14,441 bases of DNA, taken from Candidatus Tectimicrobiota bacterium (lineage in GTDB: Bacteria > JACPUC01). The notes below the pieces were generated by a model, which saw only the letters and a list, made by a program, of their open reading frames with translations, had not been told where the DNA came from and searched no databases. The first letter of the stretch is position 1, and every line of letters starts with the position of its first letter. This document shows positions 6,670 to 12,861 of this stretch, one piece after another. The DNA lies in assembly GCA_016192455.1 (NCBI GenBank), contig JACPUC010000031.1, positions 1 to 14,441 of the forward strand, in the 5' to 3' direction. Both the position numbers and the translations under genes were made by a program.

Positions 6670-7491
6670 ATGGCACAAGTCGACAGCGAACGGGTTCGCG
6701 AGGAGATCATCAGCATTCTCGACACCTACACCGCGGCCGTGTGCAAGGTGACCGAAGCCTACGCCGGCAGGCGCACGAAGGAGCGTGATATCAATTGGCT
6801 GGCGCTGCAGGCGGCCAAAGAGTACGGGGCGGCCAGGGTGCATGCCGGCATCATGCTGGACAAGGCGAAAGCCATGGCCGCGCTGGAGGATATCGAGAAA
6901 TCACATGGCGACGCCTTCGAGGAGGTGGAGCACTACCACGGCTACATGAAGGTGCTGGCCTGGCTCCTGCAGGGTGAGCCGATACCCGTGCCGGACTTCT
7001 GGGGCTACGGCGATTTCCAGGCGCCCACCTTCCTGCCGGGCCCGGGCCTGCGGCGGGAGCGCTGGCCTTGGAACCACGCCTTCTTCAGCACCGGCATGGA
7101 CTACCTGCTGCACGCCTCATCCCCGTGGATTCGCAGGGCCATGATCACCAGCATCGAAGGAGCCGCCGTGGGGTTCCACTACGCCATGAGCCGCCTGCCC
7201 CGGAGCGATGGTCTGCTGGAGCGCATCCACGTGCTCGAGCAGTCGGTCGTCGATGACGAGCTGCACCATGGTCCCGAGGTGATCGACGAGATCGCCGCCG
7301 AGCCACCCCGGGAAGCGGTGTTCAACGAGGCGCTGGAGAAAATCTGGCACCTGCGCGAACTGGAGCTCTACCAGCGGAACGAGCAGTTCCTCCAGCCGAT
7401 GACCGAGGACGAGGTTCGAGACCTGGCGCGGGCCATGCGGGCGAAGGCCATCGCGCCGGTCGATCTCTATCGCAGCGCCTTGCGCTCCTGA
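6670..7491 (+). CDS. Ferritin-like di-iron protein, unnamed family
   Basis: I do not recognise this 273-residue protein by name. It is soluble, with no signal peptide, and looks largely helical. Four acidic/His sites are spaced as in ferritin-like di-iron four-helix bundles: Glu51 in a first helix (AAKEYGAARVHAG), an ExxH at Glu87-His90 (EEVEHYHGYM), Glu163 in a third helix (SIEGAAVGFHYAM), and a second ExxH at Glu197-His200 (VVDDELHHGPEVIDE). Between helices 2 and 3 is a roughly 45-residue Pro/Gly/Trp-rich stretch (PDFWGYGDFQAPTF, then RWPWNHAFFSTGMDYLL). Such proteins act as oxidases, oxygenases, peroxide scavengers or iron stores; which applies here is unknown. The ATG has a G-rich run (GGGGGG) ending six bases upstream. 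It is bracketed by the tlyA terminator and the cytochrome promoter, so it is probably expressed on its own. Confidence 0.7.
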   Translation: MAQVDSERVREEIISILDTYTAAVCKVTEAYAGRRTKERDINWLALQAAKEYGAARVHAGIMLDKAKAMAALEDIEKSHGDAFEEVEHYHGYMKVLAWLLQGEPIPVPDFWGYGDFQAPTFLPGPGLRRERWPWNHAFFSTGMDYLLHASSPWIRRAMITSIEGAAVGFHYAMSRLPRSDGLLERIHVLEQSVVDDELHHGPEVIDEIAAEPPREAVFNEALEKIWHLRELELYQRNEQFLQPMTEDEVRDLARAMRAKAIAPVDLYRSALRS

Positions 7492-7659: not shown

Positions 7660-9477
7660 ATGAGGTGGAGACTGTTCCGAACGAGGTTGCGATTTGCCGC
7701 TCGGCTGTGGCCACGGCGCCTGCCGGGCTGGCTGCTTGCGGCTGCGGCGCTGGCCAGCCTCGTGGTTGCCGAGGCCGCCTTCGCCGAGGCGCCGAAGCAG
7801 ATGGTCTACCGGGAGTTCCCGCTCATCGGCAGCCGGGTTGCCGTCTGGGTGGTGGCGCAGCTCCACCTCATGTTCGCCGCCTTCGTGCTCGGCGTGCCGA
7901 TGTTCGCCGTCATCGTGGAGATCATCGGGTCGGCCTCGAAGGACCCCGCGCAGGGACAACGCCTCGATAACCTGTCGCGCGAGTTCACCAAGCTCCTCCT
8001 GGTGGCCTTCTCGGCGACGGCCATCCTGGGGGCGCTCCTCCTCTTCCTGTTCATCGGCCTCTACCCCACCTTCTTCACCTACCTGACGAGCATCTTCTTC
8101 CCGACCATGGCGGCCTACGCGGTGCTCTTTTTCGGCGAGTCCTTCACCCTCTACCTCTACTGGTACGGCTGGGACTCGCTGAAGCACCGCAAAGGGGTGC
8201 ACATCGGCCTCGGCGTTCTGCTCAATCTCTTCGGCATCTCCCTGATGTTCATCTCCGATTCCTGGCTCACCTTCATGAGCAGCCCGAACGGCATCGACGA
8301 CGCCGGCAACCTGGTGAGCCTGTGGGGAGCGGTGAACAATTTCACCTGGATGCCGATCAACATCCACCGCTTCATCGCCAACATTGCCTTCGGCGGCTCC
8401 ATCGTTGCCGCCTACGCCGCCTTCCGCTTCCTTGTGTCGAGCACCGAGGAGGAGCGGGCGCATTACGACTGGATGGGTTACATCGGCAACTTTATCGCCA
8501 TCTCCGGCTTCATCCCGCTCCCCTTCGCCGGCTACTGGCTGGGGCGCGAAATCTACAGCTTCAGCCAGCAGATGGGGCTGACGATGATGGGGGGCGTCTT
8601 CTCCTGGCTGTTCATTGTGCAGGCGGTGCTCATCGGCGCCCTCTTCCTGGGCGCCAACTACTACCTCTGGCTGGCGATGGGGCGCATCGAGGGGGGCGAG
8701 CGCTACCAGAAGTACACGAAGTACCTCCTGCTCATCTTGACGGCCTGTTTCCTTATCTGGATGACGCCGCACAGCCTCGTCGCCAGCCTCGAGGAGGCGC
8801 GCAAGATGGGCGGGGCGCACCACCCGCTCCTCGGCGTGCTGGGGGTGATGTCGGCGAAGAACACCGTGGTCAACATCATGATCCTGACGACCTTCCTCAG
8901 CTTCACCCTCTACCGGCGGGCGAACAAGGTCTCGGTGCACCCGCGGCGCCGCCTCCTGAAGACCATCCAGGCGCTGGTGTTCCTGGCGGCGGCCTTCATC
9001 GTCATCTTCTACGGCATCTACGGCTACTATGTGGAAGCCATCGTGCGCATCGGCTTCTCGGTGTATCAGGTGTCGGCGGTGCTCATCACCTTCATCGTGG
9101 TCATCGCGCTCGATGTGCCACTCTTCCGCAAGGCGCGGGCAACGGGGGTGATCCGCTGGGGGAAGGTGCCGGTGCGTTCGCAGTATACGCTCTTTTTGGT
9201 GGCGACTTCGTTCACCTGGCTCATGGGGTTGATGGGCTATGCGCGCTCCGGCCTGCGGCTGCACTGGCACATCTGGGGCGTGCTGCGCGACACCTCGGCG
9301 CACGCCTTCACCCCCACGCTCGGCTACGCGACGCTCGTCATCTCCATCATTGTGGCGATCTTCCTCGGCTTCATCGGTTTCATCTTCTGGGTCGGTCATC
9401 TCGGCGAAGAGAAGAAGCACCCCACGCCGGAAGCCGCCGGCATGCTGCCTGCCGCGATGGAGCCAGCCACCGTCTAG
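7660..9477 (+). CDS. Cytochrome bd-like oxidase subunit I homologue lacking the Q-loop
   Basis: This 605-residue protein has about 13 membrane helices plus an N-terminal signal-like helix (22-42, ending AFA-EAP). The first five helices align with E. coli CydA: QLHLMFAAFVLGVP places His69 at CydA His19; FPTMAAYAVLFFGESFTLYLYWYGWDSL (147-174) aligns without gaps to the CydA Glu99-Glu107 region, giving Glu160 for Glu107 but Ala152 for Glu99; NIHRFIAN puts His236 at CydA His186. Helices 6 and 7 are joined by only about 16 residues, so the quinol-binding Q-loop is missing, and there is no GRQPW; instead IWMTPHSLVASLEEA occurs at 366-380. Extra C-terminal helices carry GLRLHWHIWGVLRD (531-544). Automatic annotation would call it a ubiquinol oxidase, but quinol use is not supported. 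It heads a cytochrome c cluster without CydB and is probably a cytochrome c-linked bd-like reductase. Confidence 0.85.
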   Translation: MRWRLFRTRLRFAARLWPRRLPGWLLAAAALASLVVAEAAFAEAPKQMVYREFPLIGSRVAVWVVAQLHLMFAAFVLGVPMFAVIVEIIGSASKDPAQGQRLDNLSREFTKLLLVAFSATAILGALLLFLFIGLYPTFFTYLTSIFFPTMAAYAVLFFGESFTLYLYWYGWDSLKHRKGVHIGLGVLLNLFGISLMFISDSWLTFMSSPNGIDDAGNLVSLWGAVNNFTWMPINIHRFIANIAFGGSIVAAYAAFRFLVSSTEEERAHYDWMGYIGNFIAISGFIPLPFAGYWLGREIYSFSQQMGLTMMGGVFSWLFIVQAVLIGALFLGANYYLWLAMGRIEGGERYQKYTKYLLLILTACFLIWMTPHSLVASLEEARKMGGAHHPLLGVLGVMSAKNTVVNIMILTTFLSFTLYRRANKVSVHPRRRLLKTIQALVFLAAAFIVIFYGIYGYYVEAIVRIGFSVYQVSAVLITFIVVIALDVPLFRKARATGVIRWGKVPVRSQYTLFLVATSFTWLMGLMGYARSGLRLHWHIWGVLRDTSAHAFTPTLGYATLVISIIVAIFLGFIGFIFWVGHLGEEKKHPTPEAAGMLPAAMEPATV

Positions 9478-9522
9478 CGCCTGCCGCTGCGAAGGGGACC
9501 CGCGGGTCGTCGTGGGAGCGTC

Positions 9523-10344
9523 ATGAAAAAGGTCGTCTTCAAGGTCATTCTTTTCAACGTGCTGGTCATCCTGTTCTACATGTACGTCGGGCAGATCATT
9601 CCGCAGATCGAGAGCCATCCCCCCAAAGAGATCACCATCGCGGCCGGCATGTCCGCCACCGAGCTCGCCGCCGTCGGCAAGGAGCTCTTCTACAGCAAGG
9701 GGACCTGCGTCCTCTGTCACGCCATCGGCGAGAAAGGCCAGCGCGCTCCGGACCTGGCGGGGGTGGGCGAGCGCGCCAAGACGCGCAAGGAGGGGATGAA
9801 GGATTTCGAGTACCTGGCCGAGTCCCTCTACAACCCCACCGCCTACGTGGTCGAGGGCTGGCAGCCGATCATGCCGGTCATCAACAAGCCGCCGATCAAC
9901 CTCTCGGATGACGAGATCCATGCCGTCGTCGCCTACCTGCAAACCCTGGGGGGAACGCCGACGGTGACGCTGGAGACGAAGTTCGCCGCCGCCACGGCCC
10001 CGGCGGCTGCCGCGGCGCCGGCCGCGGCGATGAAGGTGGAAGGGGCGGACGCGGCGAGCCGCGCCAAGTCCATCCTCGCCCAAGGCGGCTGCATCGCCTG
10101 CCACAGCCTCGACAAGCCCGACCGCCTCATCGGCCCCAGCCTCTTCGACATCGGCAAGCGCAAGGACAGGGCCTACATCCTCGAATCCATCCTGGAGCCG
10201 GACAAGGTGATCGCCCAGGGCACCCCGCCCTACCCACCGGGCTTGATGCTGGGCACCCTGCAAGGGATCGGCTTCTACCAGAAAGTGACCGCGGAAAACC
10301 TCCTGACGCTGGTCGATTACCTCAGCACCCTGAAGGGGAAGTGA
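9523..10344 (+). CDS. Membrane-anchored diheme cytochrome c
   Basis: This 273-residue protein has an uncleaved N-terminal membrane helix (4-25, KVILFNVLVILFYMYVGQII), which places two cytochrome c domains in the periplasm. The first heme motif is CVLCH (62-66) with Met117 (QPIMPVI) as likely distal ligand. The second is CIACH (190-194) with Met242 (PGLMLGT) the likely ligand. An Ala/Pro-rich linker (about 155-169) joins the domains. The domain ends (DEIHAVVAYLQTL and ENLLTLVDYLSTLKG) are typical of class I cytochromes c. The ATG follows GGGAG with a 4-nt spacer. It begins 45 nt after the CydA-like gene and ends 16 nt before the next cytochrome gene. It probably carries electrons to or from the bd-like subunit. 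Confidence 0.9.
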   Translation: MKKVVFKVILFNVLVILFYMYVGQIIPQIESHPPKEITIAAGMSATELAAVGKELFYSKGTCVLCHAIGEKGQRAPDLAGVGERAKTRKEGMKDFEYLAESLYNPTAYVVEGWQPIMPVINKPPINLSDDEIHAVVAYLQTLGGTPTVTLETKFAAATAPAAAAAPAAAMKVEGADAASRAKSILAQGGCIACHSLDKPDRLIGPSLFDIGKRKDRAYILESILEPDKVIAQGTPPYPPGLMLGTLQGIGFYQKVTAENLLTLVDYLSTLKGK

Positions 10345-10360
10345 GCAGGAGAGGCCCATC

Positions 10361-11143
10361 GTGAAGAAGAGACAGCCGCCCGTCTTCTTTCTCGCCGTCG
10401 TCGCCTTCATCGTCTCCCTGCTGATCTTCCGCTTCGGCATTCGGCCGCCCATCCCTTCCAGCCTCTTCTATACTTACGTCGCTGCCACCCTCGGAGCGAT
10501 CCTGCTCTGGGCCACCTCGAGCGAGGAGGCGCTGGCGGAGTTCGTGCGTCCCATCAAGGCGACCATCGTGAAGGATGACCTGCGCTGGCTGCGCCTTCTT
10601 TTCATCCTCCTGCTGCCGATCGTCATGGGCTATGTGGCGTATTCCCAGGCGAGTGTCGAAATTCAACCGCCGGCGGAGCTGCGCGTCATCCATCCGGCCC
10701 CGCCCGCCTCGATCACCGTACACGGCAAGCAGTTGGCCATCGAGGGGCTGCGCAACCCCTTGCGCGCCGCCAAGGACTTCCAGGCGAAGAAGGCCGAGTA
10801 TCTCGCCGAGGGGCGGCGCATCTACTTCCAGAACTGCTTCTTCTGCCACGGCGATAAGTTTGCCGGCGAGGGGCACTTCGCCCAGGGCTTCAACCCATCC
10901 CCCGCCAATCTTGCCGACCCTGGAACCATTGCGCAGCTTCAGGAATCCTACGTCTTTTGGCGCATCAGCAAGGGGGGGCCGGGCTTGCCCGACCAATCGA
11001 CCCCCTGGAACTCAGCCATGCCGGCGTGGGAGAACATGCTCAGCACGGACGAAATCTGGAAGGTAGTCCTTTACATTTACGAGGCGACCGACCAGCAGCC
11101 GCGCACCTGGGAAGCCGGCCACGGGCAGGAGGCGTCGAAGTGA
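10361..11143 (+). CDS. Membrane cytochrome c, monoheme
   Basis: This 260-residue protein begins with two membrane helices (about 8-28 and 35-52), followed after a short charged loop by a third (about 77-95). A periplasmic domain then carries one heme c site, CFFCH at 159-163, in the context EGRRIYFQNCFFCHGDKFAGEGHFAQGF. Met220 (WNSAMPAW) is the likely distal ligand and DEIWKVVLYIYEAT the closing helix. The N-terminal three-helix part has no family I can name and may dock onto the CydA-like subunit. Translation starts at GTG with AGGAGAGG just upstream, 16 nt after the previous gene, so the two are almost certainly co-transcribed. The stop codon overlaps a possible GTG start (11140) of the following gene. 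Confidence 0.88.
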   Translation: MKKRQPPVFFLAVVAFIVSLLIFRFGIRPPIPSSLFYTYVAATLGAILLWATSSEEALAEFVRPIKATIVKDDLRWLRLLFILLLPIVMGYVAYSQASVEIQPPAELRVIHPAPPASITVHGKQLAIEGLRNPLRAAKDFQAKKAEYLAEGRRIYFQNCFFCHGDKFAGEGHFAQGFNPSPANLADPGTIAQLQESYVFWRISKGGPGLPDQSTPWNSAMPAWENMLSTDEIWKVVLYIYEATDQQPRTWEAGHGQEASK

Positions 11144-11241
11144 GAACCGCCGTGGGCGCCCATGCTCGGGCCGCGGGCATCCTGCCGCCGGCGCCGTTGC
11201 GGCGCAGCAGGGAGCAGGAGGGGAGAGGAGTGGAGAGGAGC

Positions 11242-12861
11242 GTGAACCCGACGCCGGCGGCTTTGACCGGGAGAGAAGCGTCGCTCAAGCTGCGTGGCGG
11301 CCAGTGGGCGCCTCTGCTCGCGGGGCTCGTCGTGGGCGCTCTGGCGCTGCTGGGTCGGCCCGCGCCGTCGTTCGCCCAGGGGAGCGCCGAAGCCGGCAAA
11401 CCCGTCTACGAACGGCGCTGCTCCCACTGCCATGGACCGGAGGGGAAGGGAGACGGACCGGCGGCCGAGCGTCTTCGCCCTCGCCCTCGTGACTTCACCC
11501 AGGGATGGTTCAAGTTCCGCTCCACGCCAAGCGGCTCACTCCCCAGCGATGCCGATCTCCTCCGCACCATCTCCGAGGGCATCCCGGGCACCTCCATGCC
11601 GGGCTGGAACGATCTGCTCTCGGAGAAGCAGCGGCGCGACGTCGTCGCCTACCTGAAAACCTTCTCCGCCCGCTTCAAGGAGGAGAAGATTCCTCCCCCC
11701 GTCGCCTTCAAGCCGGAGATCGCGGTCTCGCAGGAGAGCGTGGAGCGCGGCAAGAAGCTCTTCCTCGACATCGAATGCTGGAAGTGTCACGGCAATTCGG
11801 GACGGGCCGATGGTCCCTCGGCTCCCACCCTAAAGGATGAGTGGGACCAACCGATTTCGCCGGCCAACCTCACGAAACCTTGGCTCTTCCGCAGTGGGGG
11901 AACGCGCCGCGACATCTACCGGGCCATCATGACGGGCCTCACCGGGTCGCCCATGCCCTCCTTTGCCGATACCTTCAACCTCCCCGAGGAGGAGCTGAAG
12001 GCGATGGAAAAGGACGGCGTCTTCCTCAATCCCTGGCACCTGGTGAACTACGTTGACTCGCTGCGCCGGCAGCGTCCCCCCGGCGTCCTCCTTGTCGTCA
12101 AGCGGATGGAGGGGGAGCTGCCGACACGCTACGATGATCCCGCCTGGGAGCAGGCGCCGCTCCTCGAGTTCGCCCTCGTCGGACAGGTGATCGAGGATCC
12201 GCGCTGGTTTACGCCAGCCGTCGACAGCGTCTTCATCAAGGGCCTGTATAACGAGCGCGACATCGCCTTCCGGCTGGACTGGGATGATTCCACCAACAGT
12301 AAGAAGGATACCCCGAAGGATGCGGGCGGCACCGGCGTCGTTGACAGGTTCGCCCTGCAGTTCCCGGCGAAGAACCCGGAGGGGGGGGAGCGTCCCTACT
12401 TTTTGGGAGGTACCCCGCAAGCGCCGGTCTATCTCTGGGCTTCTGCCTCGGACCCCGCCGCGATCAAGGAGAAGAATGCCGCCGGCCTGACGAATGAGAA
12501 GGAGCAGCCAGAGGCAAGCCAGGCGCTCAGTGGGCAGGTGGAGTACGTGGAAGGGCAGTACCGCATGGTCGTCAAACGCGCCCTGACCACCAACGACAAA
12601 GAGAATGACGTGCAATTCGAGCCCGGAAAGTTCTTCCCCATCGCCTTCTCGGCTTGGGACGGGGGCAACCATGAGGAGGGGGCGAAGCGCGCGCTGAGCG
12701 CCTGGTACCTTATGTTCCTGCAACCTCCCGAGTCCGCCGCCAGGGTCTCTTACCCCCTGCTTGCCATCGTGCTCACCCTGCTCGTCGAGATGTACATCGT
12801 CCGCGCCGTGCGGCGGAAGGTGCGTCGCGAAAGGGCCCTGGCCCGGCGCGGCAGAGCCTAG
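11242..12861 (+). CDS. Diheme cytochrome c fused to an ethylbenzene-dehydrogenase-type heme domain
   Basis: This 539-residue exported protein starts with a signal-like segment (h-region about 22-38, PSFAQG at 42-47). Two cytochrome c domains follow: CSHCH at 60-64 with Met119 (GTSMPGW), and CWKCH at 179-183 with Met238 (GSPMPSF). From about 283 to 495 the protein resembles the ethylbenzene-dehydrogenase/DMSO-reductase-family gamma subunit domain that binds heme b, with YFLGGTPQAPVYLWASASDP (386-405) and GKFFPIAFSAWDGGNHEEGAKRALSAWYLMF (462-492). Leu388 stands where a Met heme ligand is often found, so heme b binding is unproven. A C-terminal membrane helix (about 503-521) and a basic tail anchor it. 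GTG 11242 has GGAG six bases upstream; GTG 11230 and the overlapping GTG 11140 are alternatives. It ends the cytochrome operon and probably accepts or delivers periplasmic electrons. Confidence 0.85.
   Translation: MNPTPAALTGREASLKLRGGQWAPLLAGLVVGALALLGRPAPSFAQGSAEAGKPVYERRCSHCHGPEGKGDGPAAERLRPRPRDFTQGWFKFRSTPSGSLPSDADLLRTISEGIPGTSMPGWNDLLSEKQRRDVVAYLKTFSARFKEEKIPPPVAFKPEIAVSQESVERGKKLFLDIECWKCHGNSGRADGPSAPTLKDEWDQPISPANLTKPWLFRSGGTRRDIYRAIMTGLTGSPMPSFADTFNLPEEELKAMEKDGVFLNPWHLVNYVDSLRRQRPPGVLLVVKRMEGELPTRYDDPAWEQAPLLEFALVGQVIEDPRWFTPAVDSVFIKGLYNERDIAFRLDWDDSTNSKKDTPKDAGGTGVVDRFALQFPAKNPEGGERPYFLGGTPQAPVYLWASASDPAAIKEKNAAGLTNEKEQPEASQALSGQVEYVEGQYRMVVKRALTTNDKENDVQFEPGKFFPIAFSAWDGGNHEEGAKRALSAWYLMFLQPPESAARVSYPLLAIVLTLLVEMYIVRAVRRKVRRERALARRGRA

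Follow-up and report, generated by a model that had tools for sequence, protein, structure and literature searches.

A CydA-like protein and three c-type cytochromes encoded in a Tectimicrobiota genome: a candidate cytochrome c-fed complex of the OR-N kind and its associated genes

Here, we analyzed a four-gene module in a 14,441-base stretch of DNA (the window), which constitutes an entire contig (C29) of the genome of a Candidatus Tectimicrobiota bacterium (4.46 Mb, 31 contigs, 88% complete). The module encodes a CydA-like membrane subunit (A), two membrane-anchored cytochromes c (B and C) and a third protein that joins c-type hemes to a heme-b domain (D). It represents the OR-N, or 'bd-like oxidase', cluster, which is known but biochemically uncharacterized, with our own tree separating A from canonical CydA only. 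With slightly better than even odds (a probability of about 0.55), A-B-C-D acts as a cytochrome c:O2 oxidoreductase and forms one membrane respiratory complex of the OR-N kind. While the gene set itself had been described before, its widespread occurrence across metagenome-assembled genomes (MAGs) labelled with many phyla, mostly without a nitrite oxidoreductase (NXR), is new. The group of accessory genes that travels with it is, as far as our literature search showed, previously unreported.

Gene content of the module and its known counterparts

A sequence-only reading of the window had proposed a CydA-like protein followed by three cytochromes c and a heme-b domain, and the open reading frames and Pfam matches agree with this arrangement in both place and strand (Table 1). 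Protein A matched Cyt_bd_oxida_I (PF01654) with 48.1 bits (cut-off 26.2) and is the sole PF01654 protein of the genome. B matched the cytochrome c family PF00034 (58 bits), C matched the cytochrome c families PF13442 and PF00034, and D matched both PF00034 (75.3 bits) and, over the cut-off, EB_dh (PF09459, 60.2 bits); the score of D against NCBIfam TIGR03477 (DMSO-reductase type II heme-b subunit) was 87.9 bits, below the cut-off of 169.85. Hydropathy analysis placed one hydrophobic segment at the N-terminus of B, two at the N-terminus of C and one at the C-terminus of D. The five heme c motifs listed by the sequence-only reading are all in frame within B, C or D, and a scan of all six frames identified them as the only CXXCH motifs of the window. 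The absence of CydB was likewise borne out, as no protein of the genome, at its 88% completeness, matched PF02322 over the cut-off (best score 19.8 bits against 35.6).

Table 1. Location of the module genes and of other features mentioned in the text (window positions unless a locus is named)
Feature	Location	Strand	Length	Details
Protein directly upstream of A	6670-7491	+	273 aa	No Pfam or NCBIfam match over cut-off
A, CydA-like membrane subunit (bd-like, OR-N-type)	7660-9477	+	605 aa	ATG at 7660 behind GGAGG
B, membrane-anchored diheme cytochrome c	9523-10344	+	273 aa	CVLCH 9706-9720, CIACH 10090-10104
C, membrane-anchored monoheme cytochrome c	10361-11143	+	260 aa	CFFCH 10835-10849
D, 'alternative NxrC' type: diheme cytochrome c with heme-b EB_dh / DMSO-reductase type II gamma domain	11140-12861	+		CSHCH 11419-11433, CWKCH 11776-11790; GTG start overlapping the C stop, behind CAGGAGG; alternative start GTG 11230
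NXR-type alpha, beta and gamma genes (contig C12)	L124:8744-15611			Same genome as the window
PCP_red-type genes (contig C30)	L149:8153-11437			Same genome as the window
PCP_red-type genes (contig C27)	L150:8804-12532			Same genome as the window
Second divergent bd-like protein	L020:8380-11781		706 aa	Beside a single diheme cytochrome c
CydA-like protein with fused cytochrome c motif	L008:739-2184			C-terminal CVSCH

The four genes are closely spaced on the forward strand. Upstream of them lie xseA/xseB/ispA/dxs/tlyA-like genes and then the protein without an assigned family. An analysis of the window's larger genes by open reading frame and Pfam detected none of the alternative complex III genes ActA, ActB or NrfD-type ActC.

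The sequence-only reading regarded this partner set as poorly characterized, a view that the literature corrects. In 2013, a bd-like oxidase encoded together with mono- and diheme cytochromes c and an alternative NxrC, itself bearing two c-hemes and one heme-b domain, was reported as common to Nitrospira, Nitrospina and Kuenenia, where the loss of the quinol site was already remarked (Lucker et al. 2013, PMC3578206). In a 2019 study, the bd-like_3/alt_NxrC_2 cluster of N. moscoviensis was found among the 40 most transcribed genes (PMC6606698). Such CydA-like proteins are now named OR-N (PMC10839748, PMC12342949), with cytochrome c proposed as the donor to these O2 reductases (PMC10839748), while their composition and function are said to await experimental proof (PMC10839748, PMC12342949). 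According to what these two papers relay of Murali et al. 2021, Nitrospinota CydA proteins fall almost wholly in OR-N1 and OR-N2, and the OR-N family as relayed there shares with the module a CydA-like protein without a quinol site, the lack of CydB and a presumed cytochrome c donor.

The clusters of N. moscoviensis, Nitrospina gracilis and Kuenenia stuttgartiensis (PMC6606698, PMC3578206) resemble the module in their bd-like subunit without the quinol loop and in their alternative NxrC, which combines two c-hemes with a heme-b domain of the DMSO-reductase type. The module differs in that the NXR genes of the window's genome reside on another contig and that the set recurs in MAGs of many phyla, mostly without NXR. 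This match rests on gene content, on the 54-55% identity of Nitrospinota relatives to A in our species-genome scan and on the published description of quinol-site loss.

Fold and conserved residues of subunit A

Protein A is a divergent bd subunit I that lies outside canonical CydA. When the PDB was searched with a profile built from 40 relatives, every match was a canonical CydA chain (best 5doq, E 1.8e-17), and the AlphaFold2 model of A (predicted local distance difference test score, pLDDT, 84) aligned with CydA structures with Z scores of 31-34 over 337-359 residues. His73, Glu164 and His240, which the alignments pair with E. coli CydA residues His19, Glu107 and His186, are present in 87 of 87 aligned sequences. 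Since the profile comparison with canonical CydA covered residues 70-261 of A only, the second axial ligand of the low-spin heme and an equivalent of E445 were not placed.

The sequence-only reading had further proposed that A diverged from the quinol-oxidizing enzymes. In support of this notion, neither KLAAxE, the motif of the quinol loop, nor GRQPW occurred in any of the 94 relatives, while both motifs were recovered in both canonical CydA controls. The model comprises about 13 long helices with no Q-loop-like insert (simple hydropathy detected 9 only), to be compared with the roughly 14 transmembrane helices expected of OR-N, three of which replace the Q-loop. A quick tree pointed the same way; among its 97 rows, A belongs to a large group that is clearly set off from canonical CydA, from which it is divided by a long branch. 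The closest protein of the tree set shares 64% identity with A (a MAG, locus L022), and the tree does not settle the placement of A inside the group. Thus, compared with canonical cytochrome bd (CydAB; PDB 6rko, 5doq), A retains the subunit I fold and the equivalents of the three residues named above, but it lacks the quinol-loop motif and GRQPW, carries Tyr in place of Glu99, and is accompanied by three cytochromes rather than by CydB.

Spread of the module and its accessory genes

Our species-genome scan yielded 556 encoded relatives of A, the best 80 of which were kept. The record titles of these 80 name Rokubacteria, NC10, Gemmatimonadetes, Acidobacteria, Bacteroidetes, Rhodothermales, Calditrichia, Myxococcota, Chloroflexi, Nitrospinae, Fibrobacteres, Poribacteria, Hydrogenedentota, SAR324 and others, such that the MAG labels, on which the taxonomy is based entirely, span more than ten phyla, mostly without NXR. 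Of the 67 loci in which at least 3.5 kb of sequence follows A, 66 keep genes B, C and D in order (the exception being L091), usually with a 2+1+2 pattern of c-heme motifs and, in two of the 66, with C and D fused. The sequence-only reading's question of whether the three cytochromes consistently sit beside relatives of A is thereby answered for this subfamily, to which the figure applies because the scan keeps close relatives. As the same four-subunit set is found in MAGs of many phyla, mostly without NXR, it constitutes a general respiratory module and not a speciality of nitrifiers.

Several variants of this organization were observed. Loci L023 and L086 each carry two A-B-C-D copies, in divergent and tandem orientation, respectively, and their second A copies are more divergent and cluster together in the tree. 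The 706-aa bd-like protein at L020 (genome G005) may be the partner subunit that others have suggested for CydAA' in Nitrospinota. The CydA-like protein at L008, with its fused cytochrome c motif, contains neither KLAAxE nor GRQPW.

In the 41 loci flanked on both sides by long sequence, which are not independent as many are from Gemmatimonadota, a recurrent group of genes adjoins the module. It includes a Usp+PCP_red protein (32/41 loci), a radical-SAM/SPASM protein that usually bears a C-terminal PCP_red domain (29/41), a NUBPL/Mrp-type ATPase and a cupredoxin/carboxypeptidase-regulatory-like protein (28/41 each), and a zinc-ribbon+PCP_red protein (27/41). The PCP_red domain is known otherwise as part of the dark protochlorophyllide reductase B subunit (BchB-type). 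The radical-SAM protein scored best against the NirJ2 and AhbD models, below the cut-off of both; these families modify tetrapyrroles.

The association also holds at the level of genomes. In a sample of 192 diverse genomes, 15 of which encode an OR-type protein and 177 of which do not, PCP_red over the cut-off occurred in 13/15 versus 7/177 (p 1.5e-13), and the close radical-SAM form (NirJ/AhbD-like with PCP_red) in 12/15 versus 1/177 (p 1.6e-15). Both associations stayed below 1e-11 after collapse to one genome per family, and the weaker, other CydA matches of this sample displayed no link to PCP_red or radical-SAM genes (p 1.0). The OR-type genomes without these genes, namely the window's own, G031 and G056, are incomplete or fragmented. 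In the window's genome, 88% complete, the close radical-SAM form was not found; contig C30 encodes a zinc-ribbon-PCP_red protein, a triple-PCP_red protein and an Mrp-type ATPase, and contig C27 encodes a Usp-PCP_red protein, which is also rubredoxin-like, and a cupredoxin-like protein. These two loci stand in a non-phototroph context.

The domain content of the accessory genes suggests a dedicated heme-maturation set. Its PCP_red, Usp and Mrp-type proteins, which most relatives encode next to the module and this genome on other contigs, would probably make or insert the hemes of the complex. From the combination of radical-SAM-PCP_red, Usp-PCP_red and zinc-ribbon-PCP_red proteins with an Mrp-type ATPase, we tentatively propose, at odds somewhat below even, that the OR-N-type complex bears a modified tetrapyrrole or needs its own heme-loading pathway. 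If true, this would be a heme-maturation system absent from the papers we found; our literature search found no paper on an association between PCP_red and OR-N, although one may still exist.

Electron donor, acceptor and alternative readings

In the proposed mechanism, a soluble periplasmic cytochrome c would reduce D at its c-hemes and its heme b, and the c-hemes of C and B would then relay the electrons to the low-spin b-heme that A holds at His240 (E. coli His186). This heme would in turn reduce two active-site hemes held by helices 1-4 (with His73 as the counterpart of His19), where O2 would be converted to water, and no quinol would be used. In this genome, the cytochrome c would probably be reduced either by a bc complex or by the NXR-type enzyme whose genes lie on contig C12. 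The genome also contains cytochrome b genes. The NXR alpha subunit shares 58% identity over 1167 aa with its counterpart in G005, the CydA-like protein of which falls among Nitrospinota in our tree, and the beta subunit is 64% identical to the G005 one. Judging from these genes, which may encode a nitrite oxidoreductase, the host may be able to oxidize nitrite. NXR-type enzymes can run as nitrate reductases too. The NXR genes and the module lie on separate contigs (C12 and C29) of this 31-contig MAG. The alpha subunit bears a Tat-like signal, and two large proteins with PKD/BiPBP_C domains precede the NXR genes. In the 192-genome sample, a close NXR beta was found in 5/15 genomes with an OR-type protein versus 8/177 without (Fisher p 0.0013). 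A purely NXR-bound role is not supported, as NXR beta is enriched yet missing from most OR-type genomes (10/15).

The oxidase reading is favored, at the modest odds given above, by the kept CydA fold and N-terminal heme ligands, the absence of KLAAxE and GRQPW, the lack of CydB and the conservation of B, C and D. The published OR-N proposal (PMC10839748) and the NXR genes of the genome support it further, as does the context of five long-flanked loci in which homologs of the pentaheme ActA and of ActB of alternative complex III (ActABCDEF) run into the module. No COX genes were found in these five loci. Since an oxygen reductase usually follows the alternative complex III genes (PMC12342949), the module sits there at the usual oxygen-reductase position. 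The window itself differs from such loci by the absence of any Act gene, and A belongs to PF01654, not to NrfD.

Several observations weigh against the oxidase reading. The position of Glu99, which belongs to the O2 site of E. coli CydA, is occupied by an invariant Tyr157, and neither the GRQPW scan nor the profile alignment, limited to residues 70-261, detected an equivalent of E445/GRQPW. COX2 and COX3 adjoin the module in 26 of the 41 long-flank loci each (COX1 in 19), and the window's genome encodes aa3- and cbb3-type oxidases of its own, so that a second oxidase is not obviously needed. A close NXR beta is missing from the 10 OR-type genomes noted above, and PMC10839748 and PMC12342949 report no OR-N enzyme demonstrated to reduce O2.

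The same COX2/COX3 neighborhood would fit a complex-III-like enzyme, in which A has another quinone site and quinone and cytochrome c exchange electrons. These would move forward to the neighboring caa3 oxidase or, in the opposite direction, reach quinone from cytochrome c reduced with nitrite electrons, a role in reverse electron transport that has been put forward before (PMC3578206). Because many loci place the module next to a heme-copper oxidase, we regard this as the main rival, at lower odds than the oxidase reading. In four Acidobacteria loci (L048, L053, L070 and L072), ActA, ActB and an ActE-like cytochrome lead straight into A with no NrfD between; these arrangements, at about 5.4-15 kb, may represent a hybrid of alternative complex III and bd. 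The model of A also resembles ActC of alternative complex III (Z of about 20) and PsrC (Z 15.2), less than it resembles CydA, and this likeness is uncontrolled, as the control model of canonical CydA was poor (pLDDT 46). The likeness, subject to the same failed control, hints at a wider CydA-NrfD fold relation. Three nearly complete genomes (G060, G084 and G190, 98-100%) have the OR-type protein and no cytochrome b, and Gemmatimonadota often lack bc1 (petB in 23%) and alternative complex III (<10%; PMC9426454). Against a complex-III-like role, 12 of the 15 genomes with an OR-type protein do have a cytochrome b gene, and the canonical quinol-site motifs are gone.

A reductase or scavenger of NO or of another small molecule, fed by cytochrome c, is improbable; the case for it is an analogy to canonical cytochrome bd, an enzyme that can contribute to NO detoxification (PMC10839748), whereas the recurrent neighbors of the module are heme-copper oxidase, alternative complex III and heme-maturation-like genes, with no NO-metabolism gene among them. 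Although A belongs to the bd superfamily and a gene could be missing from a genome that is 88% complete, we rejected an ordinary quinol-oxidizing CydA with CydB elsewhere as highly unlikely, given the lack of any CydB over the cut-off, the loss of KLAAxE and GRQPW in 94 of 94 relatives, the long branch to canonical CydA and the conservation of cytochrome partners instead.

In Nitrospira and Nitrospina, OR-N enzymes are regarded as a main terminal oxidase, while their substrate, subunits and hemes are unproven. The breadth of the module described here adds organisms in which OR-N could be studied. Its tight tie to tetrapyrrole-type maturation genes makes the identity of the OR-N hemes testable, and its adjacency to heme-copper oxidase or alternative complex III genes makes the choice between an oxidase and a complex III directly testable.

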